Source of the DNA: Prevotellaceae bacterium
GTDB lineage: Bacteria; Bacteroidota; Bacteroidia; Bacteroidales; Bacteroidaceae
DNA length: 16,404 nt
Reading direction: 5' to 3'
Assembly: GCA_003150315.1 (NCBI GenBank)
Contig: QAML01000007.1
Location: forward strand, 101,418-117,821
The notes beneath the pieces are model-generated. The model saw nothing but the letters and a program-made list of their open reading frames with translations. It made no database searches and was not told the DNA's origin. Made by a program: the position numbers and the translations under genes. Shown here one piece after another: positions 112-16,064 of the stretch. Positions within the stretch are counted from its first letter, which is position 1; each line of letters starts with the position of its first letter.

Positions 112-246
112 GTTTTATGTCGAATACTACAAGGCGTTTGGCATATCTTGTAAAACATCAGATATACGCATAAAGCCAAGATATTATTTAATTCGAAGTG
201 GTAGCCCAACCGTATTTTGGGGGAATTTCACGGTAGTTTTTATGCT

Positions 247-373
247 TTTGTAAGTTGTTGAAAATCAGATGCGATTTTTCGCTGAAAATATAAGGCATAT
301 ATTTTGAAATAAGTGCCTTGTATTTTAAAATATATGGCTTATATTTTTTACAACAAGCCATATGTTTTTTTCG
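247..373 (+). repeat. 127-bp intergenic repeat, copy A (four 11-bp cores, 21-bp period)
   Basis: This is the first of three homologous copies (others at 7710-7836 and inverted at 12194-12320). It begins with TTTGTAAGTTGTTG (247-260), identical to copy B. A TCAG-containing segment follows, then four 11-bp cores starting at 290, 311, 332 and 353, exactly 21 bp apart. The cores are ATAAGGCATAT, AAGTGCCTTGT, ATATGGCTTAT and ACAAGCCATAT, separated by 10-bp AT spacers such as ATTTTGAAAT. Core 1 pairs with core 2 and core 3 with core 4, so two adjacent hairpins can form. It lies about 105 bp upstream of the pyrK promoter. I do not recognise the family. Confidence 0.85.
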
Positions 374-476
374 GTGGCTCACATCCGGGGTTTGCTTTCC
401 CGCATTTGGCGGTTTGCAACCGTTGTGTTTTTTGCATATATGCATGAATTTTGTGGACGGGTGGGAGAGAAAAAGT

Positions 477-506
477 TTTGGATATGATGGGAATTTTCTA
501 ACTTTG
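477..506 (+). promoter_or_regulatory. Bacteroidota-type promoter for pyrK
   Basis: TTTG (477-480) fits the -33 element and TAACTTTG (499-506) matches the -7 consensus TAnnTTTG, with an 18-bp spacer. Transcription should start near 512, giving a short leader before the pyrK ATG at 527. No PyrR-type attenuator or other leader structure fits in such a short leader. Confidence 0.75.
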
Positions 507-526
507 TATGTGATATAGATTATAAA

Positions 527-1318
527 ATGAAGAAATACATTCTTGACCTGAAAGTGGTCTCCAACGAACGGTTTGCTTCGGGACATTCGCTTTTGAAACT
601 CACCGATGAGAGCAAGGCTTTGCCGGAAATACTGCCGGGGCAGTTTGTGCAGGTGCGTGCGTGTGCCGAGGGAGGGCTTCCGTTGCTTCGCAGACCCATT
701 TCCGTGAATTTCGTAGACCGCGAAAAAAACGAGTTGTGGCTTCTTGTTCACAATGTGGGCAGGGGCACGGCTTATATATGCTCGCTCAATCCCGGCGATA
801 CGGCTAATGTGGTTTTGCCTTTGGGAAACGGTTTTACCATTCCGCCACGTGGCGGAAAAGTTAAGCACGAACTGCTTGTGGGCGGGGGAGTTGGCACGGC
901 TCCGTTGCTCTATTTGGGCAAGGAATTGCTGAAGCGCGATGTGGAACCTACTTTCCTGCTTGGCGGACGTTCTGCCAGGGACATTCTGCAACTTGACGAT
1001 TTCGCAAAATACGGCAGAGTGTTCATAACTACCGAGGATGCGTCGGCAGGAGAACAGGGGTTCGTAACCCAACACAGTTTGCTGGAGCGCGAAAAGTTCG
1101 ATTACATAGCCACGTGTGGTCCTAAGCCCATGATGAAGGCGGTGGCGAAGTATGCAAGTCAAAGCGGAACGGCGTGTGAAGCCTCGCTCGAAAATATGAT
1201 GGCTTGCGGTTTGGGTGCGTGTCTGTGCTGTGTGGAGGAGAATGCCGAAGGGCATAACGTATGTGTGTGCAAAGAAGGTCCGATATTCAATATAAATAAA
1301 TTGTCATGGCTCAACTGA
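527..1318 (+). CDS. pyrK: Dihydroorotate dehydrogenase B, electron-transfer subunit
   Basis: 263 aa, the usual PyrK length. PyrK carries FAD and a [2Fe-2S] cluster and passes electrons between NAD(H) and the FMN of PyrD in the fourth step of pyrimidine synthesis, in the cytosol. The FAD-binding RRPIS motif is at residues 55-59. The nucleotide-binding GGGVGTAPL is at 119-127, and CGPKPM follows at about 197. The cluster cysteines are C227, C232, C235 and C248, in the family pattern CGxGxCxxC...C. An extra C234 lies inside the motif (LCC where LGC is usual). The ATG sits about 15 nt after the predicted transcription start. The 3' end overlaps pyrD by 13 nt, which suggests translational coupling. 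The family call is firm. Confidence 0.96.
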
Positions 1319-2214
1319 CTACCAATATAGCGGGCATAGAGTTCCGCAATCCGGTGCTGACGGCTTCAGGTACGTTTGGCTACGGACCGGAATTCGCCGA
1401 TTTCGTGGATTTCTCCAAAATAGGAGGAATAATAGTGAAAGGCACAACCCTTAAACCCCGAGAGGGAAATCCTTATCCGCGTATGGCGGAAACGCCGTCG
1501 GGCATGCTCAACTGTGTGGGGCTTCAAAACAAGGGGGTTGACTATTTTGTGGATAAGATATACCCGCGCATTGAAAAACTCGACACAAATGTCATTGTTA
1601 ATGTTGCAGGTTCGTCGCCCGAAGACTATGCCGAGTGCGCCTCACGTCTTGCGGGACTTGAAAAGATTCCGTGCATAGAGCTGAACATATCTTGTCCCAA
1701 CGTAAAGAACGGGGGAATGGCGTTTGGCGTAACGCCCGAAGGGGCTGCAAGCGTGGTTTCGGCTGTGCGCAAAGCCTATGGCAAACCCATAATAGTGAAG
1801 TTGTCGCCAAATGTAACTGACATTTCCGAAATTGCACGCGCCGTGGAAGCTGCGGGAGCTGATTCAGTTTCGCTCATAAACACCCTCATGGGCATGGCAA
1901 TTGACATAGAACGCCGCAAAATGAAGCTGAGCATAAAAACCGGCGGACTTTCCGGTCCGGCAGTGAAGCCTGTGGCTGTGAGAATGGTATGGGATGTGGC
2001 TCATGCGGTGAAAATTCCCGTCATTGGGCTTGGCGGTATCTGCACTCCCGAAGATGCGGTGGAATTTCTCATGGCAGGGGCAAAAGCCATAGAGATTGGT
2101 ACTGCCAATTTCCTGAACCCAGCTATAGCAGGCGAGATGGCGGAAGGAATAAACCGCTGGCTCGACAAACACGGATGCAAATCGGTTGACGAAATAATAG
2201 GAGTTGCGCAATAA
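1306..2214 (+). CDS. pyrD: Dihydroorotate dehydrogenase, class 1B catalytic subunit
   Basis: 302 aa, full length for the class 1B enzyme, an FMN TIM barrel that oxidises dihydroorotate to orotate with PyrK as its redox partner. Visible motifs are ASGTFGYG near residue 20, K45 in IVKG (FMN/substrate lysine), NISCPN with C130 as the class 1 catalytic base (class 2 enzymes have Ser here), and VKLSPN near residue 164. The C-terminal phosphate-binding part holds GLGGI and IEIGTANF. Cys at 130 together with the adjacent pyrK rules out the quinone-linked class 2 enzyme. The start overlaps the end of pyrK. No promoter or terminator separates it from pepT, 44 bp downstream. Confidence 0.96.
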
Positions 2215-2258
2215 AATCAGCACAAATTCTATACGAGAATAATTAAAAGCATATTAAT

Positions 2259-3488
2259 ATGGAATTGATAGAACGCTTTTTAGACTATGTGGGTTACGAT
2301 ACCCAATCGAGCGAAACTGCCGACACTACTCCAAGCACACCGAAACAGCTTGTGTTTGCGGAGCATTTGAAAAATCAATTGGAAGAACTCGGATTTGATG
2401 ACGTGTATCTTGACGAGCACGGATATATATACGCCACTCTGCCGGCAAATACCGACAAGAAAGTTCCTACAATCGGTTTCATTTCGCATTACGACACGAG
2501 TCCCGACTGCAGCGGCGCAAATATCAAACCGCGTATAGTGAAAAATTACGACGGTTCGGACATCTTGCTTTCCGAAAGCAGCGGTCGCGTGCTTTCTCCA
2601 AAGATGTTCCCCGAATTGCTTCCGCATAAAGGTGAGGATTTGATTGTTACAGACGGAAACACGTTGCTCGGAGCCGACGACAAAGCCGGTATAGCCGAAA
2701 TTGTTCAGGCAATGGTGTGGCTGAAAGAGCATCCCGAGGTGAAACACGGCAAAATCCGCATGGGTTTCAACCCTGATGAGGAAATAGGAATGGGAGCGCA
2801 TCTTTTCGATGTGGAACGTTTCGGTTGCGAATGGGCTTACACCATGGACGGAGGCGAGGTTGGAGAAATAGAATACGAGAATTTCAACGCCGCTTCTGCT
2901 AAGGTGAAGGTAACAGGTGTGAGCGTGCATCCCGGATATGCCAAAGGAAAAATGAAAAACGCCGGACGAATAGCAGCGGAACTGATAAAATCGGTGCCGG
3001 ATGCCGAAACTCCCGAAACGACTCAAGAATACGAAGGTTTCTATCACCTTACCGGTGTGGAGGGATGCGTTGAAAGTGCCACGGTGAACTACATAATACG
3101 CGACCATGACCGAAATAAATTCGAAAAACGCAAAGAATTCTTCCGCAAACTTGTTGAAAAACTCAACGGAAAGTATGGTGAGGGAACGGTGAACGTTGAA
3201 ATCTCGGATTCATACTATAATATGCTCGAGAAAATAGAACAGGTGATTCATATAATAGACATCGTTAAAAAGGCAATGGAAGAAGTGGGGCTGACACCCA
3301 AGGTTCGCGCCATAAGAGGCGGTACCGACGGAGCGCAACTCTCTTTCAAAGGTCTTCCTTGCCCCAATATTTTTGCGGGAGGCATTAATTTCCACGGACC
3401 ATACGAGTTCGTTCCCGTGCAGTCTATGGAAAAAGCAATGAAAACCGTAGTAAAAATTTGCGAACTTACCGCGCAGTATAACGGTTGA
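2259..3488 (+). CDS. pepT: Peptidase T (tripeptide aminopeptidase, M20B)
   Basis: 409 aa, matching the family length of about 410. PepT is a cytosolic di-zinc enzyme that removes the N-terminal residue from tripeptides. The metal ligands and catalytic residues are all recognisable: H77 and D79 (SHYDTSPD), D140 (GADDKAG), the catalytic Glu at 174-175 (PDEEIG), D197 (TMDGGEVG) and H379 (NFHGPYEF). [11 protein letters not shown] near 353-363 is typical of PepT. A dimerisation (lid) domain occupies roughly 210-320. The preceding 44 bp contain no TAnnTTTG promoter, so the gene is probably co-transcribed with pyrKD. Any metabolic link to pyrimidine synthesis is unclear; salvage of amino acids from peptides is the likely role. 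Confidence 0.95.
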
Positions 3489-3519
3489 CCTTGTAAAAAC
3501 AAAGATAAATGCAAAACAT

Positions 3520-3557
3520 GAAGGCGGTGAGGGACAACGGTTACCCCAACCGCCTTC
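3520..3557 (+). other. Hairpin in the pepT-antiporter spacer
   Basis: GAAGGCGGT (3520-3528) and ACCGCCTTC (3549-3557) form a perfect 9-bp stem around a 20-nt loop that can add an inner GGG/CCC pairing. No T run follows, so it is a poor intrinsic terminator. It ends 21 nt before the antiporter start codon. It could stabilise or process the mRNA, or modulate expression of the downstream gene; the role is inference. Confidence 0.5.
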
Positions 3558-3578
3558 TGCTTTAACATATAAGCCATA

Positions 3579-5837
3579 ATGGAACATCTGCCAAAGATTA
3601 TTTACGACCTTGCACTGATTCTTGTGCTCGCAGGAGCTGTAACGCTAATCTTCAAACGACTTAAGCAACCTCTTGTATTGGGTTATATAGTTGCGGGATT
3701 CCTTGCCGGTCCCCACATGCCTTATATGCCTACTGTCAGCGACCTTGGCTCTGTGGAGACATGGGGAAACATCGGTGTCATATTCCTTATGTTTACGTTG
3801 GGAATAGAGTTCAGTTTCAAAAAGATAATGAAAATGGGAAGCTCGCCCATTATAGCGGCAGTAACAATAATTTCGGCGATGAGCATGCTGGGTTCTCTGC
3901 TCGGGCATTCCTTTGGTTGGAGCAGAATGGACAGTCTTTTTCTCGGCGGAATGCTTGCCATGAGTTCCACAACCATTATATACAAAGCTTTTGACGACCT
4001 CGGACTCCGCAGTCAGAAGTTCGCAACGAATGTGTTAAGTGTTCTTGTTCTCGAAGACATTCTTGGAATTTTGCTAATGGTTATTCTTTCGACGCTTGCG
4101 GTAAGTAAGGATTTCGATGGTATGACTGTTGTTGATAGTCTTATGAGACTTTTGTTCTATCTTGCCTTGTTGTTCCTCGTGGGTGTGTTTATAGTTCCGT
4201 TGATATTGCGAAAAAACCGCAAGTGGATAGGCAAGGAAACTCTGTTGGTCGTTTCTGTAGGATTTTGTTTTGCCATGGTTGTTCTGGCAGTCAAGTTGGG
4301 ATATAGTGCAGCCTTTGGCGCGTTCATGATGGGGAGTATATTTGCCGAGACAGTTGAGGCGGAGACGATAGAAAAGCTTGTTAGTCCCGTGAAAGACCTT
4401 TTCGGCGCAGTGTTTTTTGTTTCCGTCGGAATGCTTGTGGATCCGGCGATTCTTACACAGTATTGGTTGCCGGTAATGTTGATTACGCTCACAATATTAA
4501 TAGGTCAGGCAGTTTTCGGATCCTTTGGATTTATTCTTTCAGGGCAATCGCTGAAGGGGGCAATGCAAAGCGGATTCAGCATGGCACAGATAGGTGAGTT
4601 TGCATTTATTATTGCATCTCTCGGAATGTCTCTTCATGTCATCAGTAGCTTTATATATCCTATTGTAGTTGCTGTTTCCGTGATAACAACGTTTCTCACG
4701 CCTTATATGATAAAGAGTGCGCCGGCGGCATACGGACTTGTTAAAAAAATAACGCCTGCAAAAATCATGGTTGTGCTTGACAAGAAGCCTTCGCAGCATA
4801 AATCGGAGCAAACGGGAAGCGCATGGAAGAGACTTATTACTGCGTTGCTGAAACAGATTGCGGCTTATTCCATATTATGTGTGGCGATAACGGCAATAAT
4901 GTTGAGCTTTTTCCTGCCGTTCTTCAGACATACCATGAGCCATTGGATAGGAAATGCCGTGTGTGCCGTTGTAACAATTGCGCTTCTGTCTCCTTTTTTG
5001 CGTGCAATTGTTATGCGTAAAAACCATTCCGAGGAGTTTCGTCAGATATGGCGTAAGAATTTGCGGGGAAGCCATTTCCTGCTTGCCATGACGATATTCG
5101 TGCGATATTTGCTCGCGAGTGCGTATGTCTATTACATTATTAATTATGTATCGCCTTTCGCAAGTTGGATTCATTTTGCGGTCGCAATGATTCTTGTTGC
5201 CCTTATGATGCGTTCAAAACGGATTAAACTTTACAGCATTGCCATAGAAAGAGTGTTTTTCCAGAATTTACGTTCACGCGATTTGCAGGCTGTTGTCCAC
5301 GGAAAGGTAAAGCCTCTCTACGCGAACCATCTTCTTTCGCGCGAAATCCATATTGCCGACCTCGACGTGCCTGAAAATACCGCATGGGCGGGGAAGTCTT
5401 TGGCGGAACTCGATTTCAGCCATAAATACGGTATTATGATTTCGTCGATAATGCGTGGCGGTGTGCGTCACAACATTCCAATGGCGCAAATGCAGGTTTA
5501 TCCCGGCGACCGTCTCGAGGTTATCGGCAATGATGAACAGTTAAAACTTTTCGCGTCAAGGATGTCGGAAGCCGTTGTTCATGTTGATATGGCTCCCGAA
5601 CAGCGTGTAATGCAGTTGAAGTGCATTTCCGTGAGCACTTCTTCGCCGCTTTTCGGAAAAACAGTGCGCGATAGTCGGTTGCGCGAGGATTATCGTTGCA
5701 TGATAGTGGGTTTTGAGGAGGGCAGCGAAGCTCTTGGTCTGCCCTCTGCCTCACGTGTTTTTCGCGACGGCGACCTTGTGTGGCTTGTGGGTGAGAAAAA
5801 TTCGCTAAGAAAACTCGTTTCCGAAAACGTGAAATAG
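3579..5837 (+). CDS. CPA2-family cation:proton antiporter with two C-terminal RCK_C (TrkA-C) domains
   Basis: 752 aa inner-membrane protein. Residues 1-380 form the Na+/H+-exchanger domain, with PLVLGYIVAGFLAGP (31-45), the family motif FTLGIEFSF (72-80) and an acidic ED pair (159-160) in a central helix, where relatives carry QD or DD. Residues about 420-545 add roughly four more hydrophobic segments. The cytosolic end has two TrkA-C-like domains, about 586-663 and 676-750, each with a PGD/DGD turn (642-644, 730-732). There is no nucleotide-binding RCK_N (GxGxxG) domain, so it is not a standard KefB/KefC. Transport of K+ or Na+ against H+ is expected; the ion cannot be read from the sequence. 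It lies 90 bp after pepT with no clear promoter of its own, so read-through is likely. Confidence 0.88.
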   Translation: MEHLPKIIYDLALILVLAGAVTLIFKRLKQPLVLGYIVAGFLAGPHMPYMPTVSDLGSVETWGNIGVIFLMFTLGIEFSFKKIMKMGSSPIIAAVTIISAMSMLGSLLGHSFGWSRMDSLFLGGMLAMSSTTIIYKAFDDLGLRSQKFATNVLSVLVLEDILGILLMVILSTLAVSKDFDGMTVVDSLMRLLFYLALLFLVGVFIVPLILRKNRKWIGKETLLVVSVGFCFAMVVLAVKLGYSAAFGAFMMGSIFAETVEAETIEKLVSPVKDLFGAVFFVSVGMLVDPAILTQYWLPVMLITLTILIGQAVFGSFGFILSGQSLKGAMQSGFSMAQIGEFAFIIASLGMSLHVISSFIYPIVVAVSVITTFLTPYMIKSAPAAYGLVKKITPAKIMVVLDKKPSQHKSEQTGSAWKRLITALLKQIAAYSILCVAITAIMLSFFLPFFRHTMSHWIGNAVCAVVTIALLSPFLRAIVMRKNHSEEFRQIWRKNLRGSHFLLAMTIFVRYLLASAYVYYIINYVSPFASWIHFAVAMILVALMMRSKRIKLYSIAIERVFFQNLRSRDLQAVVHGKVKPLYANHLLSREIHIADLDVPENTAWAGKSLAELDFSHKYGIMISSIMRGGVRHNIPMAQMQVYPGDRLEVIGNDEQLKLFASRMSEAVVHVDMAPEQRVMQLKCISVSTSSPLFGKTVRDSRLREDYRCMIVGFEEGSEALGLPSASRVFRDGDLVWLVGEKNSLRKLVSENVK

Positions 5838-5863
5838 TTATAGCCTTCGGGCAATGTCAAAAT

Positions 5864-5897
5864 AAAAACGGGACATCCTGTTAGATGTCCCGTTTTT
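5864..5897. terminator. Bidirectional terminator between antiporter and tig
   Basis: AAAAACGGGACATC (5864-5877) and GATGTCCCGTTTTT (5884-5897) form a perfect 14-bp stem with a 6-nt loop. The stem is A-rich on one side and T-rich on the other, so it can end transcription from both of the convergent genes that flank it. Confidence 0.92.
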
Positions 5898-5914
5898 GTG
5901 TTATGTTGTTGAGA

Positions 5915-7273
5915 TTATTTCTTTTCCTGCTCTTCTTTGATGAGCTTTTCAAAATCCTCAAGCGAAATCTTTTTGTGGTTAAGAGTAATTTTCTCCTTAT
6001 ATGCGGCAATGAGTTTCTCGCTCAAAACCTCGTAGAAAATTTCTTCAATCTGGTTGTCCTCTTTAAGCGACTTTTCTGCGTATTGTTCCACGAGTTCGTC
6101 GGGAAGCTGCATTCCGTAAGCTGCAAATTGGCGACGGGTGCGAACCTTTGCCATTGCGCGTACATCGGCATCCTCAACTTTTATTCCCGCAGCCACAGCC
6201 AAGTGGTCGCGAACGAGTTGCCATTTCAGTTGTTCGGTTGCGCCGGCATAATTGTCGTCAATATATTTGTCGTCTTTGCTCGGGTTGTTCTCTTTCATGA
6301 GACGTTTGAGCAGAGGTTCGGAAAATTCGAGTTCGCCAGCCTTTTTGAGTGCGTAAACACGCAAATCCTCAAAGAACTTATAGTCTGCGTTGGCGGTTTG
6401 AGCCTTGTTGTATTCTTCGCGAACTTTCTCACGGAATTCTTTCTCATCTTTCACAGCATCTTTCCCGAGAGCATTGTCAAAGAATTCCTGATTCAGCTCG
6501 GCAGGTTTGCGGTGATTGATTTCAGTAATGGTGTATGTGAAGTTTCCTTCGTGATTCTTCAGCTCTTCTTTCTTTATTTTGAGCATGGAAGCCGCCTGAG
6601 TTTCGTCGCCATAAAGAGAAGCGGGCTTGATTGTGAGAACGTCGTCTTTCTTTGCGCCGTCAAAGATTTTCTTTTGTTCTTCGTCTTTAACGTATTCCGG
6701 TGAAATGAGCACGCCTTCCACTTTCAAGGGCTCAACACCTTCGGCTGCTGCCACTTCCACAAGGTCGCCTTTCATGTAATCGCCTTTCTGATATTCGTTA
6801 ACCTGCTCGAAAGTACCTTGAGCCATGAGCATTTCGTTAATTCTCTCGTCAACGAATTTGTCGCTTACCTCAATGTCATAGTAAGTAAGCTTGTCTTTCT
6901 TGTCAAGCGATACTTCGATGTTCGGCTCTATGGCAACGTCCATTATATATTCGAAATCGTCGCGCTCTTTATAGTCCTGCTCTTTCTGTTCGCTGTTGGG
7001 GAGCACATGACCGAGCACATTTATTTTGTTTTTCTTGAAATAGTCGGATATTGCTTTGTTCACTGCCTTTGAAACTTCCTCTGCCTTGGCTTCGGGACCG
7101 TATAGTTTCTTGACAAGACTCATAGGTACGCATCCGGGGCGGAAGCCTTTCATGTTGGCTTTGCGGCGGAATTCCTTGAGAGACTTTTCAAGTCCTTCCT
7201 GATAGTCTTCGGGAGCAACTTTCACTGTGAGTTTGCCGCTCACTTTATCAATATTCTCGAATTTGATGTCCAT
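5915..7273 (-). CDS. tig: Trigger factor, ribosome-associated chaperone/prolyl isomerase
   Basis: 452 aa, typical for Bacteroidota trigger factors. It binds the ribosome at the polypeptide exit and shields nascent chains. The N-terminal ribosome-binding domain carries GFRPGCVP (43-50), matching the GFRxGxxP signature; the residue after FR is P where E. coli has K. The FKBP-type PPIase region, at about 150-245, is divergent. The SurA-like helical arms run from about 260 to 430, with a charged Lys/Glu C-terminus. The gene stands alone, converges with the antiporter and shares its terminator. A -7 element at 7391-7398 gives a leader of about 110 nt. The clpP/clpX genes that often follow tig elsewhere are absent here. 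Confidence 0.94.
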   Translation of the reverse strand: MDIKFENIDKVSGKLTVKVAPEDYQEGLEKSLKEFRRKANMKGFRPGCVPMSLVKKLYGPEAKAEEVSKAVNKAISDYFKKNKINVLGHVLPNSEQKEQDYKERDDFEYIMDVAIEPNIEVSLDKKDKLTYYDIEVSDKFVDERINEMLMAQGTFEQVNEYQKGDYMKGDLVEVAAAEGVEPLKVEGVLISPEYVKDEEQKKIFDGAKKDDVLTIKPASLYGDETQAASMLKIKKEELKNHEGNFTYTITEINHRKPAELNQEFFDNALGKDAVKDEKEFREKVREEYNKAQTANADYKFFEDLRVYALKKAGELEFSEPLLKRLMKENNPSKDDKYIDDNYAGATEQLKWQLVRDHLAVAAGIKVEDADVRAMAKVRTRRQFAAYGMQLPDELVEQYAEKSLKEDNQIEEIFYEVLSEKLIAAYKEKITLNHKKISLEDFEKLIKEEQEKK

Positions 7274-7390
7274 GTTTTGTATTGTGTAATTAATTGTTTC
7301 TTTGTCGGTTCGTCTTTATGACGGGTGAATGTTTCTTTGTTTTCGGCTGTTGATGCATTTTTGTGTTATACAATCCCGCCAAATTGCTTG

Positions 7391-7398
7391 CAAAATTA
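7391..7398 (-). promoter_or_regulatory. Candidate -7 element for tig
   Basis: On the minus strand this reads TAATTTTG, a match to TAnnTTTG. No good TTG-type -33 element is visible 18-20 bp upstream, so the call rests on one element and its position ahead of tig. Confidence 0.45.
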
Positions 7399-7709
7399 GT
7401 GCTTTCCTTTCACTTATCAGCCATTTATGTGCGGAAAAATGGTTTTCGACTGCGCTATTTCTTCTTTATCTGCGGGTTGTGGCTTGCTCTTTGCCTTTCT
7501 GCAGCATGATATTTCCAAAAAATGCGTTCCGCGCTTTTTTGTTTCCCGAAATTTTTCAGATGTCCGGGAATGCATGAAAAGGCTTCCGGTTTTCAGAAAT
7601 CGCGAAGCGTATTGCCATGAGTGCGGCAATAATTTCCTCGAAAAGGGAATGCCGTGGAAAATTTCATACAAGTCTGATTGTCAGGAAAATAACCCAAAAG
7701 TTGACAGTC

Positions 7710-7836
7710 TTTGTAAGTTGTTGTTTCTCAGGTATTTGAGATGGTCAAAAATACAAGGCACTTATTTTAAAATAAGTGCCTTGTATTTTAAAATATATGG
7801 CTTGTGTTTTTTGCGATAAGCCATGTGTTTTTTACG
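7710..7836 (+). repeat. 127-bp intergenic repeat, copy B (contains a 42-bp perfect palindrome)
   Basis: Same layout and orientation as copy A. TTTGTAAGTTGTTG (7710-7723) is identical. A TCAG-containing segment follows, then four cores at 7753, 7774, 7795 and 7816, again exactly 21 bp apart and starting 43 bp from the left end as in copy A. The cores are ACAAGGCACTT, AAGTGCCTTGT, ATATGGCTTGT and ATAAGCCATGT. Cores 1 and 2 with their spacer form a perfect 42-bp palindrome (7748-7789). Cores 3 and 4 form a second hairpin. It ends 62 bp upstream of the VTC promoter. Confidence 0.88.
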
Positions 7837-7898
7837 ATGTCTGGAACGGAGCAAAAAATATTATTTGTAAGTACAGGTTTCACCCGGTGTGTTTGTGT

Positions 7899-7929
7899 TT
7901 TGTGATTATGAAAAATATTCTTAACTTTG
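7899..7929 (+). promoter_or_regulatory. Bacteroidota-type promoter for the VTC operon
   Basis: TTTG (7899-7902) and TAACTTTG (7922-7929) match the -33 and -7 elements with a 19-bp spacer, the best promoter match in the window. The predicted start at about 7935 excludes the in-frame TTG at 7934 as an ordinary start codon and supports the ATG at 7955. Confidence 0.8.
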
Positions 7930-7954
7930 GACGTTGTTACGTTTAAGCGAGGCA

Positions 7955-8713
7955 ATGGATTTTTACACAGAACTTGAAAACATCATCTCGGACATGCCCC
8001 GAATAGGACTCGAAGAGACCGGAAAGGTGAGACTTATGAATCGAACAGATCGTAAGTATCTTGCCAACAGAAACCTGTTGTTGAAATTCCTGCGGCTTAC
8101 AAAAGACGAATACAGCATTCTCGTGGCTTCCGAAAGCCCTGTATCGGTTTATTCCACAACCTATTGGGATACGGATGACCATCAGTTCTATACAAGGCAC
8201 CACAACGGTTGTCGTCCGCGCACCAAGGTGAGGGTGAGAACCTATGTAGACACCGAAATAACCTTTCTGGAGGTAAAAAACAAGGACAACCACAACAAAA
8301 CTCGCAAGAGTCGTGTAAGGCTTGCCTCTCCCGAGGAAATGAATTCAGATGACGAAGAAATGTTTCTCGAAGAAAAAGCCGACGTGTCCCTAAACGACAT
8401 ACATCCGTGCCTTAGGAACCGTTTCAGCAGGCTTACGCTTGTGAACAAGGCGTTCACCGAAAGGCTCACCATAGACTTCGATGTGAATTTTACCAATCTT
8501 GAAACGCAGCAGGAGGCACAACTCGGAAACGTTGTCATAATGGAACTGAAACGTTCGGGCAAAAGCGATTCTCCGGCTTTCGATGCTTTTATAAAACTCC
8601 GCATAAAACCGCAAGGGTTCAGCAAATACTGCATAGGCACTTACCTTACAAATCCCGGGGTGAAGCACAACAAATTCAAGAAAAAAGAAGTTGTGATGAG
8701 GAGATTGGGATGA
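7955..8713 (+). CDS. VTC-domain protein (polyphosphate-polymerase-like, TTM tunnel fold)
   Basis: 252 aa from the ATG. VTC domains belong to the triphosphate tunnel metalloenzymes; in yeast Vtc4 this domain builds polyphosphate from ATP. Candidate tunnel residues are R30 and K34 (NRTDRKY), YWDT (70-73), K91/R93/R95 (KVRVR), E106 and K108 (LEVKNK), R117/R120/R122, R170, E197 (MELK) and K224 (GFSKY). This is the alternating basic and acidic pattern expected of an active enzyme. There is no SPX domain, no signal peptide and no membrane segment, so it is a bare cytosolic catalytic domain. In the yeast complex the domain is fused to membrane helices; here the next gene may supply them. First gene of a five-gene operon. 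The product has not been shown to be polyphosphate. Confidence 0.85.
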   Translation: MDFYTELENIISDMPRIGLEETGKVRLMNRTDRKYLANRNLLLKFLRLTKDEYSILVASESPVSVYSTTYWDTDDHQFYTRHHNGCRPRTKVRVRTYVDTEITFLEVKNKDNHNKTRKSRVRLASPEEMNSDDEEMFLEEKADVSLNDIHPCLRNRFSRLTLVNKAFTERLTIDFDVNFTNLETQQEAQLGNVVIMELKRSGKSDSPAFDAFIKLRIKPQGFSKYCIGTYLTNPGVKHNKFKKKEVVMRRLG

Positions 8714-8767
8714 CCGCCCCGAAAATCCATTAGCGAAAACTTATAATAATATACATCAAAACAAATA

Positions 8768-9457
8768 ATGATTACTTTACTCAACAGCCTATTAGACATA
8801 ACGTTTTTCGGCGTGAAGCTCATCGATGTTTGCGGTTTGGCAGAAATGCTGACGCGCTTTGCGCTCAATTCCGTGTTTGTGTTTGCAATAATAAACTTTT
8901 TCTACTATCCGCGAAGCAACAGGCGGGACTACTACTTTGCTTTCGTAATGCTGTCGGTAAGTATCTTCATGATGATTTACCTCATGGACGGCTCGAAAAT
9001 AAAGATAGGTGCTGCGCTCGGGCTTTTCGCCGTGTTCGGAATTATTCGTTACCGAACCGAAAGCGTTCCCATACGCGAGATGACCTATCTGTTCTTCGTC
9101 GTGGCTATTTCGGTGATAAACGGAATGTCTGCAAAACTAAGTGTGGCGGAATTGTTGGCGGCAAACCTGCTATTTGTGCTCGTGGTAGCCGTTGCCGAAA
9201 GCAATTTGTTTGTCAAGAGAGTGGGATGTAAGTATGTGCGATATGATAATATAAAGCTCATAACTCCCGAAAAAAATGCCGAACTCATTGCAGACCTAAA
9301 GGAGCGCACGGGACTTGATGTGCTGCGCGTGGAAGTGGGTTCCATAGATTTCATGAACGACACGGCACTGATTAAAATGTATTACACTTCGAAATCCACG
9401 GGAGAAAACGATGCAGACACCATGCCCAAGATGCCTAAGAAGTACGAAGAATCCTGA
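8768..9457 (+). CDS. DUF4956 polytopic inner-membrane protein
   Basis: 229 aa. About five hydrophobic segments are visible at residues 31-47, 54-73, 78-94, 104-121 and 126-143. A soluble C-terminal domain of about 85 residues follows. The strongest family signature is GAALGLFAVFGIIRYRTE (81-98) followed by PIREMTYLF, with conserved Arg and Glu at the end of a helix. DUF4956 proteins have no assigned function, but they recur beside VTC-domain genes. It starts 54 bp after the VTC gene with no promoter between. By analogy with the yeast complex, where a small membrane domain conducts the growing polymer, it may anchor the VTC enzyme and form the channel. That role is inference. Confidence 0.82.
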   Translation: MITLLNSLLDITFFGVKLIDVCGLAEMLTRFALNSVFVFAIINFFYYPRSNRRDYYFAFVMLSVSIFMMIYLMDGSKIKIGAALGLFAVFGIIRYRTESVPIREMTYLFFVVAISVINGMSAKLSVAELLAANLLFVLVVAVAESNLFVKRVGCKYVRYDNIKLITPEKNAELIADLKERTGLDVLRVEVGSIDFMNDTALIKMYYTSKSTGENDADTMPKMPKKYEES

Positions 9458-9501
9458 CAACACTCAACTTATAACATAACAATCCCAACTAATAAAAAGA
9501 C

Positions 9502-10326
9502 ATGAGAATTACTAGAATCACTAAAACTTTGCTCGTTGCGGTTTCATTAGTTTTCCTTCCTGCCAAAGCTTCTGATTTCGGTGTTTGGACAGGATTGGGA
9601 GCCACTAAAAAGGTCGGAATGTTCAGCTTTACCCTTGACGGCGGATTTCGCAGTCAAAACAATTTGAAAAGCGTGGATCGTTGGAACGTAGGGTTCGGAG
9701 TAGAATATAAACCTTCGGCATATTTTTCGGTTGCAACTTCTTATGATTTTCTCTATAACTATAAGTGCGAGAGCAAAGAGGCGAAATATGACACGTGGAT
9801 AGAAAAAGACGATGACGGAAACGAATATACGGAAAAAGAATACAAAGGCTATAATGTCAAGAAACCGTATTGGCGGTGTAAAAACCGTTGGAATTTCGAT
9901 TTGACGGGAAAACTTCCCATCGGTCGCCTTACTCTTTCGCTTCGCGAGCGTTATCAGTTCACCCGTGCCAATTCTGTGAGTTCGCTTGTGGATAAGTATC
10001 GTGTGAATTTGGCTGGCGATGTTCCTGAATACAAGAAAACCGATGTGAAAGTGCGTTCCGCCAACAACGATTCGCGTCTTCGCTCGCGCCTCATGGCTGA
10101 TTACGACATTCGCCACTGTCCTCTTTCGCTATACGCCTATATTGAGATTGCCAACAACCTGTGTAGCGGCATGCAACTTGAGAAAACGCGCGTGGGTGTG
10201 GGAACGGAAATTAAGATTAACAAACAAAACAAACTGGATGTGGGATATGTTTATCAGGATTCCCGAGATGATGATTTCAGTGGTAGTGAACATGTCATTG
10301 ACATATCCTATAAATATAAATTCTGA
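9502..10326 (+). CDS. DUF2490-like outer-membrane beta-barrel protein
   Basis: 274 aa. A signal peptide spans residues 1 to about 23 (cleavage near AKA|SDF). The mature part has alternating aromatic and polar strands, for example the segments around residues 37-80 and 124-150, and ends in ISYKYKF, with the terminal Phe typical of outer-membrane barrels recognised by BamA. Acidic/Lys-rich stretches at about 92-115 look like extracellular loops. The pattern resembles DUF2490 proteins, small barrels of unknown function. It lies 44 bp after DUF4956 and 21 bp before the next gene, with no terminator on either side. It may give the system a passage through, or a tether in, the outer membrane. Barrel assignment is fairly sure; the family name less so. 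Confidence 0.7.
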   Translation: MRITRITKTLLVAVSLVFLPAKASDFGVWTGLGATKKVGMFSFTLDGGFRSQNNLKSVDRWNVGFGVEYKPSAYFSVATSYDFLYNYKCESKEAKYDTWIEKDDDGNEYTEKEYKGYNVKKPYWRCKNRWNFDLTGKLPIGRLTLSLRERYQFTRANSVSSLVDKYRVNLAGDVPEYKKTDVKVRSANNDSRLRSRLMADYDIRHCPLSLYAYIEIANNLCSGMQLEKTRVGVGTEIKINKQNKLDVGYVYQDSRDDDFSGSEHVIDISYKYKF

Positions 10327-10347
10327 CAGTAGTGATAATAATTTGAT

Positions 10348-10821
10348 ATGAAAAAGAAATTGTTGACATTGGTTGCAGCGGTCATGGTAACGCTTATATG
10401 CTATGCCGTGTCGGACAACGGAGGGGCGAAATACCTTACGGTAACGCTCAAAGACGGTTCCGAAGTGAGCTACTCGCTCGAAAATTTCCGTGTAACCTAT
10501 GGAGAAGGGAATATGTATGTTGAAAGTGCCGGCGAAAAGTTCACTCTTTCCACGGTGAGACTTGTGAATATGTTTTTCTCCGAGACTCCCACTTCCATAT
10601 CCTCTCCCAAGGTTAAGGCTGCGGTGATTGTGAACAACGGCGGGGAACTTCTTGTGAATTCCGAGCGTTCCGGCATGTTAAAGGTCTATTCTTCCGAGGG
10701 CGCACAGCTTCTTTTCGCCAAAATAAAGACCGGTGAAAATGCCGTGGACCTTTCTTCTTTGTCCAAGGGCATATATGTGGTAACACTAAACGGTCAATCT
10801 GTTAAATTCGAAAGAAAATGA
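10348..10821 (+). CDS. Small secreted protein with T9SS-type-A-like C-terminal domain
   Basis: 157 aa. A signal peptide covers residues 1-20. Residues 28-78 form a small beta-rich module (LTVTLKDGSEVSYSLENF and onward) of a kind seen at the N-terminus of various Bacteroidota surface proteins. Residues from about 85 to the end resemble the C-terminal sorting domain of type IX secretion cargo: KVYSSEGAQ (112-120), VDLSSLSKGIYVV (133-145) and a basic C-terminus. If so, the cargo proper is only about 60 residues. The stop overlaps the next start by 4 nt (ATGA), so the two are translationally coupled and probably act together. No T9SS component lies in the window. The function of the N-terminal module is unknown. 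Confidence 0.7.
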   Translation: MKKKLLTLVAAVMVTLICYAVSDNGGAKYLTVTLKDGSEVSYSLENFRVTYGEGNMYVESAGEKFTLSTVRLVNMFFSETPTSISSPKVKAAVIVNNGGELLVNSERSGMLKVYSSEGAQLLFAKIKTGENAVDLSSLSKGIYVVTLNGQSVKFERK

Positions 10822-12047
10822 AAAGACTGATTCTTGTTTCGGCTCTGCTTTGCGGCTTTGTGTGCGCAAATTCGCAGACTATGTATTTTTGGAAAAACAA
10901 TGTTGCTCTTGCGGCAGAGGCTTCTGCTCTTGGCGTAATGCAATATACTCAAAACGGCACGGCTCTCACGGTGGTTGATTCGGTTATGGATTTGCAAAAC
11001 ATCGACAGTATTACGGTGGGAACGCCCGTTGACGAGTCAACGGTGCGAGTAGATTATTCTTCAAACGGTGCAACGGCGGTCGTTCCCTTTTCGCTTTCGC
11101 GCAAGGTGGCTGTAAGCATTTCCGGTGCCTATGTCAATGCGGTATCCACGGCTCTTGACGGAAACGATATTGTTTATTCGCTCTCTGGCAAAAGCTCTGA
11201 CGGCGCATTTTTGCAGACTGGCACATATAAATGTACCGTTCAACTCAACGGACTTGAATTGACTTCCATGCAGGGTGCTGCCATAAACATTGCAAACGGT
11301 AAACGCATAAAAATGATTCTCGCCGACGGCACGGAAAATACGCTCTCCGACATGGCGGGAGGCACACAGAAAGCATGCCTTTATGTCAAAGGACATCCCG
11401 AGTTTGAAGGAAACGGCACGTTGAACGTTACGGGAAACACTTCTCACGCAATTGCTTCGGGCGAATATATGTATGTCAAGTCGGGCAACATAAATGTTCT
11501 TGCTTCTGCCAATGACGGAATCCACGCCGGGCAGTATTTCAAAATCAAAAGTGGCTCGGTGGTAATACGAAATGCCAAGGGCGACGGAATACAGGCAGAC
11601 ATAACGAAAGATGCAACCGACGAATTTAACGGTCAGATGATTATAAACGGCGGCAAGATAGACATTTCTTCAAACTCGTCCGATGTAAAATTGCTGCGAT
11701 GCGATAGTTTGATGACCATAAGCGGCGGAACAATCGTAATAAACGGTAACGGCGACGGAATAAAAGGCATTGCCACCGACGGCAACCTTGTGATAAACAA
11801 GGACAACGGTGATACGAATATCAGTGTAACCGTTTCGGGTGGCGTATATACCGACCCCGCCACGAGCGAAACAAGCAAAACGCGCTGCATAAAGGTTAAC
11901 GGCGATTTCACTATCACTGCCGGAACTCTGAAAGCCAATGCCACGGGAAAGAAAAGCGCGACCATAAAGGTTGACGGCGTTTCTGCGAAGTCGGCAGCCG
12001 CTTCGGTTACAACCAACGACGGTTACGTGTTCGACCAGACACTTTGA
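10818..12047 (+). CDS. Secreted Cthe_2159-type beta-helix, putative carbohydrate-binding protein
   Basis: 409 aa with a signal peptide (about 1-19, cleavage near ANS|Q). Residues 22-100 form a beta-rich N-terminal module related in style to that of the preceding protein. From about 137 the sequence matches the Cthe_2159 pattern: VQLNGLELTSMQGAAINI (141-158) and ILADGTENTLSD (167-178), then repeated Gly-rich rungs with the turn motifs NDGIHA (232-237), GDGIQA (255-260) and GDGIKG (312-317), which in such proteins may bind calcium. The characterised homologue from Clostridium thermocellum binds cellulose and pectin-like polysaccharides in a pectate-lyase-like fold. No lipobox and no sorting domain is visible, so its final place (periplasm or surface) is open. 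Last gene of the operon, followed by a terminator. Confidence 0.85.
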   Translation: MKRLILVSALLCGFVCANSQTMYFWKNNVALAAEASALGVMQYTQNGTALTVVDSVMDLQNIDSITVGTPVDESTVRVDYSSNGATAVVPFSLSRKVAVSISGAYVNAVSTALDGNDIVYSLSGKSSDGAFLQTGTYKCTVQLNGLELTSMQGAAINIANGKRIKMILADGTENTLSDMAGGTQKACLYVKGHPEFEGNGTLNVTGNTSHAIASGEYMYVKSGNINVLASANDGIHAGQYFKIKSGSVVIRNAKGDGIQADITKDATDEFNGQMIINGGKIDISSNSSDVKLLRCDSLMTISGGTIVINGNGDGIKGIATDGNLVINKDNGDTNISVTVSGGVYTDPATSETSKTRCIKVNGDFTITAGTLKANATGKKSATIKVDGVSAKSAAASVTTNDGYVFDQTL

Positions 12048-12073
12048 CGCTTCGTTAACACTGTACATTTTAT

Positions 12074-12118
12074 AATGCGGGTTGCATATCTCGGGATGTG
12101 CAACCCGCATTGTTTTTT
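12074..12118 (+). terminator. Terminator of the VTC operon
   Basis: AATGCGGGTTGCA (12074-12086) pairs perfectly with TGCAACCCGCATT (12099-12111) around a 12-nt loop, followed by GTTTTTT. It lies 27 bp after the last gene of the operon. Confidence 0.9.
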
Positions 12119-12193
12119 CATGCCCGTTTTTGCGCTCGTTCGCATGCCATAATTATCGTCGCAAACGGGAAAAATAAATACCCGTTTCAGCAC

Positions 12194-12320
12194 CCCGAAA
12201 AACATAAGGCATGTTGTAAAAAATACAAGGCATATATTTTAAAATATGTGCCTTATATTTCAAAATAAGTGCCTTGTATTTTTCGCCTTTTCAGATGTCT
12301 GAAAAACAATGTGTTACAAA
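12194..12320 (-). repeat. 127-bp intergenic repeat, copy C (inverted, re-ordered cores)
   Basis: Read on the minus strand, this copy starts with TTTGTAA at 12320. It has TCAG at the same offset as A and B and its first core 43 bp in (at 12277). In plus-strand order the cores are ATAAGGCATGT (12204), ACAAGGCATAT (12225), ATGTGCCTTAT (12246) and AAGTGCCTTGT (12267), once more 21 bp apart. The pairing differs from A and B: the two middle cores pair with each other and the two outer cores pair around them, giving one nested hairpin in place of two adjacent ones. Confidence 0.82.
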
Positions 12321-12461: not shown

Positions 12462-13397
12462 TTATTTCTTGCTCGTGGTTTTCTTTGCGGTGGTTGTCTT
12501 CTTGGTTGTGGTAGTTTTCTTGGCAGTCGTTGTCTTCTTTTTCTGCGTTGTGCTTACCGCTTTGGTGGCGGTTGTTGTGGTTGTTGCGGCTGCAAATTGT
12601 GGCAACGGCTGATAGTTTTTCATCACGCTCGGCAATTCCTTTTGAATATCCGCAATTCTGCGTGCATCGCTCGGGTGGGTGCTTGCAATTTCAGGTACGC
12701 TCGAAGTGGATGATGAGGACATTTTTTTCCAGAAGTCTATTGCCACTTCGGGATTGTAGCCCGCAAGACGCATGAAGACGAGACCGATGTTGTCGGCTTC
12801 GCTTTCGTGTTTGCGCGAGAAAGGAAGAATGACACCGTAGTTGGCTCCAAGTCCGTAAACTTGTCCGGCTATTTGCTGCACTGCCGCACTTTTGCCCGAA
12901 AGAGCCTGTCCCAGGATGCCGGCACCGTATTGCGCGAGAACCTGTTGGCTCATACGCTCGTTGCTATGTTTGGCAACGGCGTGCGCAACTTCGTGTCCCA
13001 ACACAACAGCAAGCTCGTCGTCCTTTGAAATAATGTTCATTAGTCCTTCGTAAACCACAATTTTACCACCGGGCATGCAAAAAGCGTTCAGTTCATTGTT
13101 TTGCACGAGATTGAACTCCCATGAAAAGTTTTTTATCTCGCTTTCGCCGCCATGGCTTTTAAGATAAGCTTCCGTGGCAGCCGCTATGCGTTTTCCCACG
13201 CGCTCAACCTGTGCGGTTTCTGTGGCGTTTGTACTTTTCTTGGCAGTTTTCATGTAGCTTTGATACTCTGTAAGACTTGAACTTAAAACCTCGTTGTCGC
13301 TAACTATATTCAGTTGTCTGCGACCGGTAACCGGTACGGAAGAACAACTTCCGAGAAGCAGTAGTGCCGATGCCATTAAAAAGAGATATTTCTTCAT
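12462..13397 (-). CDS. M48-family zinc metalloprotease lipoprotein with Lys/Thr-rich tail
   Basis: 311 aa from the ATG at 13397. A lipoprotein signal ends in the lipobox LGSC (15-18), predicting lipidation at C18 and an envelope location. SSVPVTGRRQL right after it is typical of this family. Zinc ligands are H135 and H139 of HEVAH, with catalytic E136, and E198 of ESEAD as the third ligand, so the protease should be active. Related envelope M48 lipoproteins of E. coli (LoiP, BepA) act in outer-membrane quality control. Residues about 271-311 are almost only Thr, Lys, Ala and Ser, with some 12 Lys and no acidic residue, an unusual appendage. An upstream in-frame ATG at 13526 would bury the lipobox and is rejected. 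A weak -7-like CAATTTTG lies at 13451-13458 (minus). Stand-alone gene. Confidence 0.92.
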   Translation of the reverse strand: MKKYLFLMASALLLLGSCSSVPVTGRRQLNIVSDNEVLSSSLTEYQSYMKTAKKSTNATETAQVERVGKRIAAATEAYLKSHGGESEIKNFSWEFNLVQNNELNAFCMPGGKIVVYEGLMNIISKDDELAVVLGHEVAHAVAKHSNERMSQQVLAQYGAGILGQALSGKSAAVQQIAGQVYGLGANYGVILPFSRKHESEADNIGLVFMRLAGYNPEVAIDFWKKMSSSSTSSVPEIASTHPSDARRIADIQKELPSVMKNYQPLPQFAAATTTTTATKAVSTTQKKKTTTAKKTTTTKKTTTAKKTTSKK

Positions 13398-16016: not shown

Positions 16017-16039
16017 ACAATATGTTTTTATTTATTATA
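15996..16039 (-). repeat. 22-bp tandem duplication spanning the receptor start codon
   Basis: 15996-16017 and 16018-16039 are identical at 21 of 22 positions. On the minus strand the downstream unit begins TATGATAAATAAAAAC and contains the start ATG. The upstream unit begins TATAATAAATAAAAAC, so the single difference changes ATG to ATA. Confidence 0.85.
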
Positions 16040-16064
16040 GAATGCGTCGTCTTTAATTCGGCTG

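Follow-up and report, generated by a model that had tools for sequence, protein, structure and literature searches.

What keeps the length of an intergenic repeat fixed while its sequence changes? The question is raised by a stretch of 16,404 bp from a Prevotellaceae bacterium (assembly GCA_003150315.1, contig QAML01000007.1, forward-strand positions 101,418 to 117,821), hereafter the window, which carries three copies of a 127-bp intergenic element. Each copy contains four 11-bp cores that start exactly 21 bp apart, which corresponds to two turns of the DNA helix. We found many further copies in a related genome, G420, and in the scored copies the length of the core array is kept exactly at 21 bp per step while the letters diverge. 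Bacterial repeat families usually drift in both length and letters. Many diverged copies with an exact two-turn spacing thus offer a natural variant set to test whether dispersed intergenic repeats act via DNA geometry.

The window elements belong to a high-copy family

The copies lie at 247-373 and 7710-7836 on the plus strand and, inverted, at 12194-12320 on the minus strand. These coordinates, the TTTGTAA at the left end, the TCAG at an offset of 18 bp and the starts of the twelve cores all agree with the claims of an earlier note on this DNA. The same note assigned the spacers between the cores to one type, which describes six of the nine inter-core spacers (ATTTTAAAAT) and not the other three (ATTTTTTACA, GTTTTTTGCG and TGTAAAAAAT). 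Over 127 bp, the ungapped identities among the copies are 78%, 70% and 76%, compared with 43% for the best 127-mer match in 20 shuffled windows. Tandem Repeats Finder (TRF) calls a period of 21 with 0% indels in each copy. The copies are AT-rich, with a GC content of 26-30% versus 45% for the window.

The genes of the window are of Bacteroidales type. For the window trigger factor, identity is 99% to a metagenomic protein and 41-45% to proteins assigned to Prevotella or Alloprevotella. In a sample of 399 genomes from the family that includes genome G393, the best relative was G420, with 69% identity over the trigger factor; the next best reached 46-47%. Judging from named homologs, this family is probably Bacteroidaceae as defined by GTDB. 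The relative searches covered samples of 393 and 399 genomes from larger groups, and a relative closer than G420 is possible. G420 is the sole genome of its genus in the genome set, and was represented by 120 stretches totaling 1,416,366 bases of ~2.7 Mb, about half of the genome. Twenty of the 120 stretches, plus C206, were picked because they had matches.

With one G420 copy as BLAST query, 77 pieces of G420 matched. A profile built up from 20 anchored copies gave 416 matches at E≤0.1, or 235 once redundancy was removed; of these, 211 have E<1e-5 and 132 cover at least 200 model positions; shuffled G420 DNA (letter shuffle in 200-bp blocks) gave none. The proposal that the window copies represent a repeat family is therefore borne out by many further copies. 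Without the match-selected stretches, 167 strong copies remain in 1,144,073 bases (100 consecutive contigs), one per 6.9 kb. In a full pattern scan of 299 relatives with one core flavour, the palindromic core pair (≤2 mismatches) was present in one genome, G420, and a reversed control pattern in none. Other presence scans scored only two or five candidates per genome and give weak negatives.

The G420 unit spans ~235-250 bp, and the window copies align to its central part (model positions 24-183). The profile matches all three window copies, each on the expected strand: copy 1 at 232-358(+), weakly (E 4.9e-4, 11.3 bits), copy 2 at 7706-7850(+) (E 1.7e-8) and copy 3 at 12323-12178(-) (E 3.1e-13). 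Because these alignments reach beyond the 127-bp boundaries, the window copies may extend slightly past 127 bp. Copy 1 is a probable family member mainly by virtue of its 78% identity to copy 2, given its weak model match.

Gene calls in G420 were made with a longest-open reading frame (ORF) script. By these calls, 141 of the 211 strong copies are intergenic, 26 lie partly in called ORFs and 44 mostly so. The 119 copies with both neighbours called split evenly over the four gene-orientation classes (32/31/30/26), showing no bias. This even split speaks against the promoter-linked function suggested earlier, and counters a promoter, attenuator or terminator role in general. The earlier note had also placed two window copies 60-105 bp upstream of promoters. 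TAnnTTTG, the Bacteroidetes-type -7 box, is found instead 126 bp past copy 1 (at 499) and 86 bp past copy 2 (at 7922), and these boxes are no proof of promoters because the window has 18 of them over both strands.

The array keeps its length while its letters diverge

We compared indels and substitutions along 97 full-length G420 copies, whose pairwise identity has a median of 61%. No indels occur in the array or in the 23 bp that follow it, at 0.18 and 0.29 substitutions per site, respectively. The trailer has 99 indels at 0.37 substitutions per site, the small inverted repeat 37 at 0.20 and the upstream stretch 102 at 0.34. Among 19 mutual nearest-neighbour pairs, the array shows 0 indels and 175 substitutions, compared with 22 and 339 for the trailer and 9 and 196 for the leader together with the inverted repeat.

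Since a profile could mask indels, the cores were also placed independently of it. Nine or more of the 11 letters of a core, the first core included, had to match, and ties were broken toward 21 and 42; badly decayed cores escape this procedure. All 170 scored G420 copies have core 2 at +21, and all 169 scored for core 3 have it at +42, which takes the 21-bp step beyond a coincidence of three copies. Cores 2 and 3 do not pair mutually, yet the step between them is as rigid as that between cores 1 and 2.

The constraint at the level of DNA or RNA

All three window copies fold far better than shuffled sequences on both strands (z -5.8 to -9.6); for copies 1 and 2 the leader strand is clearly the better of the two. 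Folding and core pairing in G420 were assessed in 158 copies that cover model positions 75 to 140, and in 105 of these the leader strand gives the better fold (mean -33.7 versus -30.7 kcal/mol), which counts mildly in favour of RNA. Cores 1 and 2 covary with a z of 8.2 versus shuffles, a type of score that is inflated by related copies.

The mismatches point the other way. Non-Watson-Crick core pairs on the leader strand are A-C in 155 cases versus G-T in 70; the corresponding numbers are 25 versus 20 in 40 distinct core pairs, and 81 versus 76 in the outer stem. Because A-C mismatches outnumber G-T, pairing is not maintained for a leader-strand transcript. A G-U signal on the leader strand, first seen in the window copies, was not upheld in the G420 core pairs. 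RNAalifold retained only the core 1-core 2 helix in 120 G420 copies. At the Rfam gathering score, the window yielded tRNAs only and nine relative loci (42,122 bases) yielded no match. With no RNA-strand mismatch signal and a rigid step that also spans non-pairing cores, an RNA hairpin is rejected as the main constraint. We take the main constraint to act on double-stranded DNA, which agrees, together with the indel-free array, with the earlier prediction of an array on one face of the helix.

Mosaic organization of the units in G420

The G420 unit starts with a leader, in which a weakly conserved stretch from ~27 bp 5' of TTTG is followed by TTTGnAA, 11 bp, TCAG and a small inverted repeat. 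In the array, core 1 is forward and cores 2 and 3 are mostly reverse, in the flavours ACATTTGAGAC, ACAAGGCACAT, ACAAAGGAGAT and ACATAGGACAT and variants of these. Past the array come a GC-rich stretch and then a T-run. By eye, a short GAAAAGGC/GCCTTTTC-like pair is seen near the unit ends, and GACGAC, the reverse complement of which contains CGTC, recurs as an outer motif near the units. Adjacent units are arranged head to tail (36 same-strand pairs versus 1 opposite).

The core sequences are interchangeable, as the same leader can precede a different core set. Enough downstream sequence is available for 182 leaders; the main core flavours come next in 152 and not in 30. A second subfamily accounts for 26 of these 30, with cores of the CTACTGCGAGAT type at offsets 0/22/43/65 in 24 of the 26 (steps of 22/21/22 bp). 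Mosaic blocks in G420 are flanked by a family of GC-rich palindromes of the CTGGGAGGGCCGCTGCCCTCAGCGGCC type. At L087 6590-7420, two units sit between such a palindrome and a second leader, while six other loci (L042, L047, L111, L139, L170 and L171) have no unit between them; the whole assembly is thus a mosaic.

Arrays of similar geometry at other loci

TRF reported 214 rows in the G420 stretches, 70 with period 21 and 35 with period 22; these 105 rows (86 with overlaps merged) comprise several unrelated unit sequences, and 66 of the 105 are intergenic. At the same settings, 206 kb of other loci gave 24 rows, seven of them with period 21 or 22, so such arrays are not confined to G420; three of the seven are 7-bp multiples in L002. 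This Muribaculaceae contig contains several stretches of 7-bp repeats (GAGTTNT), which TRF calls as period 21.

With looser settings, a survey of 58 trigger-factor loci (57 from Bacteroidales and one from Saprospiraceae, 311 kb) detected 23 distinct arrays of period 17-30, eight at 21, eight at 22 and seven at all other periods, with letters that vary from locus to locus. Four of the eight 21-bp arrays are L002 7-bp multiples, to be set aside. In 16 palindromicity tests, with p values uncorrected for their number, six of the remaining 12 arrays are palindromic at p≤0.033 (L007, L009, L019, L252, L260 and L274) and six are not significantly so (L003, L251, L257, L261, L271 and L275); one of the four L002 stretches has a p of 0.03. 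The window arrays gave p 0.043, 0.000 and 0.017 (300 shuffles).

Window copy 2 sits 437 bp upstream of the trigger factor. Of 52 other loci, eight have a 21/22-bp array with unrelated letters in the region 112-470 bp before the trigger factor start (L007 3079-3166, L009 3062-3152, L019 3230-3309, L252 1796-1868, L257 1775-1913, L260 1326-1387, L271 992-1035 and L275 1812-1861). These 52 loci are L007-L016, L018-L030 and L250-L278, most of them from the family of G393; ten arrays were checked and L251 was omitted.

Two of the surveyed arrays proved to be repeat families in their own right, in G393 and G064 (L189-L218, and L219-L248 with G064). The G393 family has 65 matching pieces, with at least 17 distinct loci among the 30 matches listed, and the G064 family has 67, with at least 23 distinct loci among the 30 listed. 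Both consist mostly of four-unit 22-bp palindromic arrays and are genome-specific and unrelated in sequence. The arm-to-arm step is 22 in 42 of 51 intervals and 44 in 6 of 51 in G393, and 22 in 61 of 75 intervals within the listed classes in G064. By eye, the G393 family has matching outer inverted repeats, as in a miniature inverted-repeat transposable element (MITE). Among 80 sampled genomes of the G393 genus, the query matched in 59 including G393, and the array part was found in G393 alone among the five candidates scored per genome; the listed matches outside G393 cover the trigger-factor part only. We regard the recurrence of the same geometry with unrelated letters in G393 and G064 as a lead.

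Explanations for the fixed spacing

We think it somewhat more probable than otherwise that the window elements are a non-coding mosaic repeat, similar to MITEs and bacterial interspersed mosaic elements (BIMEs), in which protein binding to one face of the DNA keeps the array at a fixed length. The unit would consist of a leader (TTTGnAA-N11-TCAG with the small inverted repeat), a phased array with three or four 11-bp cores that are partly palindromic, and an end rich in T. One protein, or several copies of one, would be seated on one DNA face and thereby hold the array length. The candidate would most likely be a factor that copies or recombines the element, or possibly a host DNA-binding protein that uses it. 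Like MITEs, the elements are short, non-coding and dispersed in many copies, with 235 non-redundant matches in 1.42 Mb of G420 and most of the strong ones intergenic. Movement is suggested by the dispersal, the random orientation, the subfamilies and the narrow distribution.

Several points weigh against this explanation. The binding protein is something that we purely infer. The rigidity is not limited to the array, as no more than 3 indels occur, at 0.25 substitutions per site, in the leader stretch at model positions 36-57, and the covariation of cores 1 and 2 means that pairing or duplication also contributes. The G420 family has no clear terminal inverted repeat; its leader is instead a direct repeat that flanks many units. 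No target-site duplication or clean empty site was found in G420, where 130 of 181 blocks have both flanks; the flank comparison gave 46 paired matches, and those inspected lay inside other repeats or mosaics. No mobilising gene is linked to the elements in G420 in a search that covered the Y1 family only (one match). The copies that lie mostly (44) or partly (26) within ORFs of the simple caller also count against it, as does the lack of matches on plasmids, on phages (G420 copy as the only query) and in IMG/VR (two exact patterns). A plasmid or phage origin is rejected as far as searched, with the E. coli collection outside the search.

The arrays could alternatively be host sites that organise the chromosome or regulate genes, bound by a nucleoid protein or a segregation or occlusion factor, in which case dispersal merely seeded them. 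We consider this rather unlikely. It would account for a length constraint that is seen even in nearest-neighbour pairs, for the similar geometry with unrelated letters in two other genomes, and for the arrays upstream of the trigger factor, including window copy 2. However, the copies are very numerous and run head to tail, they have no orientation preference (with small samples for G393 and G064), and their distribution in the samples is narrow. The region upstream of the trigger factor gene tig is perhaps simply the largest intergenic stretch there, and three of the eight trigger-factor arrays (L257, L271 and L275) are not significantly palindromic. A more general idea, which we regard as doubtful, is that the Bacteroidales family shares a class of arrays set by geometry and not by letters: dispersed, intergenic, with at least three partly palindromic units two turns (21-22 bp) apart. 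The letters would be species-specific, as though a DNA-binding protein that changes quickly and the sites it binds had displaced each other in turn, much like centromere repeats. Should the same spacing with different letters turn out to be the rule across this family of gut bacteria, a dominant group would appear to possess a protein-DNA system that has so far gone unrecognised.

A neutral minisatellite, in which slippage on palindromes yields units of 21-22 bp and the period has no function, is an improbable source of the arrays. Periods of 21 or 22 do make up 105 of the 214 TRF rows in G420, with several unrelated units, and they recur at other loci, both in the 7 of 24 rows that include the three L002 multiples and in 16 of the 23 arrays found with looser settings. 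Unselected slippage nevertheless predicts changes in length, whereas the nearest-neighbour pairs show no array indel against ~11 expected from the trailer rate, and the step is kept in every scored copy. Least likely, to a degree that makes it a very poor candidate, is a structured RNA in which tandem hairpins and a T-run form a small RNA gene, an attenuator or a terminator. The folding of the window copies, the better-folding leader strand of G420, the T-run at the same offset in G420 and the covariation of cores 1 and 2 would fit such an RNA, but the excess of A-C mismatches, the single helix kept by RNAalifold, the equally rigid step between non-pairing cores, the absence of an Rfam match and the random orientation to genes do not.

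Relation to known repeat systems

BOX elements of Streptococcus pneumoniae are modular: fixed end modules enclose an internal module that is repeated. The modular intergenic layout is shared with the present family, but BOX elements belong to another phylum, and the comparison is one of layout, not of sequence; we know of no helical phasing in them. Iteron arrays and the ends of Tn7 and Mu place several protein sites ~22 bp apart on one DNA face, mostly as direct repeats beside the gene of a known protein. They resemble the present arrays in this one-face spacing, and differ in that no such protein gene is linked here.

Most likely, the family is nearest in kind to BrickBuilt MITEs and BIMEs, and its distinctive part is the helically phased core array. 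According to the parts of the BrickBuilt report drawn on here, this MITE of Porphyromonas gingivalis has a minisatellite of 23-nt direct repeats between a leader and a tail, 19 copies in strain ATCC 33277, predicted stem-loops, and terminal inverted repeats resembling those of a known insertion sequence; its authors reported no BLASTn match outside its species (PMC4596501). Both elements are non-coding, occur in Bacteroidales and carry, between end segments, a minisatellite with units of roughly two helical turns (PMC4596501). Unlike BrickBuilt as described in those parts, the present family has partly palindromic cores with a 21-bp step, a leader repeated in direct orientation and a far higher copy number. 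The 23-nt BrickBuilt repeat AGAYCATARTATCCTCTCRTRTG has no match with ≤3 mismatches in the window.

Repetitive extragenic palindromes (REPs) are 20-40 bp long; the CGTC types, with a single stem of 8-9 bp, have no dedicated transposase, were reported from Bacteroidetes and show negligible head-to-tail order, as far as the portions of the source used here describe them (PMC3733652). Like REPs and BIMEs, the present elements are high-copy intergenic palindromes joined in mosaics, with GACGAC near the G420 units. Unlike those described in these portions, the G420 units are ~235-250 bp long, contain a phased array and follow a dominant head-to-tail order (PMC3733652). A 20-40 bp unit with a single stem and a GTAG/CGTC tag does not describe the present elements, whose units are at least 127 bp long with a 21-bp-phased array.

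REPs with a REP-associated tyrosine transposase (RAYT) were also considered. The sole Y1 transposase gene in G420 adjoins a TnpB-like ORF (by eye); the contig begins 109 bp from it in one direction, and in the other the nearest unit is ~2.3 kb distant. A REP-RAYT system was set aside as improbable. L139 104-1774 in G420 contains, by eye, an IS605-type pair with Y1 and TnpB-like ORFs on opposite strands, ~1 kb before two element units. The earlier note, which did not recognise the family, named a match to a known element as a refuting result. None was seen in Rfam, on plasmids, on phages (G420 copy as the only query) or in IMG/VR (two exact patterns), nor for the BrickBuilt unit in the window. 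A literature search confined to open-licence papers listed work on BrickBuilt, REP and BOX elements and, among the papers listed, no description of this repeat family.

Parts and surroundings of the window copies

Copy 1 lies between tRNA-Val and pyrK, copy 2 between the trigger factor gene (minus strand) and a VTC-domain gene (plus strand), and copy 3 between a gene of Cthe_2159 type and one that, by eye, is M48-peptidase-like. The leader modules are at 247-289(+), 7710-7752(+) and 12278-12320(-); that of copy 1 consists of TTTGTAA, 11 bp, TCAG and a small inverted repeat, and G420 copies have the same TTTGnAA-N11-TCAG layout. The phased arrays occupy 290-363(+), with cores at 290, 311, 332 and 353, 7753-7826(+), with cores at 7753, 7774, 7795 and 7816, and 12204-12277(-), with cores at 12204, 12225, 12246 and 12267. 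In copies 1 and 2 the core order F R R' F' gives two consecutive hairpins, and the first pair of copy 2 is a perfect palindrome; in copy 3 the order F F R R gives one nested hairpin. The T-rich right ends are gtttttttcg at 364-373(+), with the same offset from the leader as the G420 T-run, gttttttacg at 7827-7836(+), and gtttttcggg on the minus strand at 12194-12203.

Further TTTGCAA/TTTGTAA motifs are located at 413-419 and 7864-7870, 166 and 154 bp past the leader starts of copies 1 and 2. They recall the second leader of G420 units and could be due to chance. Two other tandem repeats occur in the window, both in genes named by eye. A 22-bp tandem duplication (2.2 copies) at 15995-16043 spans the start-codon region of an 817-aa TonB-receptor-like gene on the minus strand, and an 18-bp coding tandem repeat at 12481-12539 lies in the Lys/Thr-rich C-terminus of the M48-peptidase-like gene.

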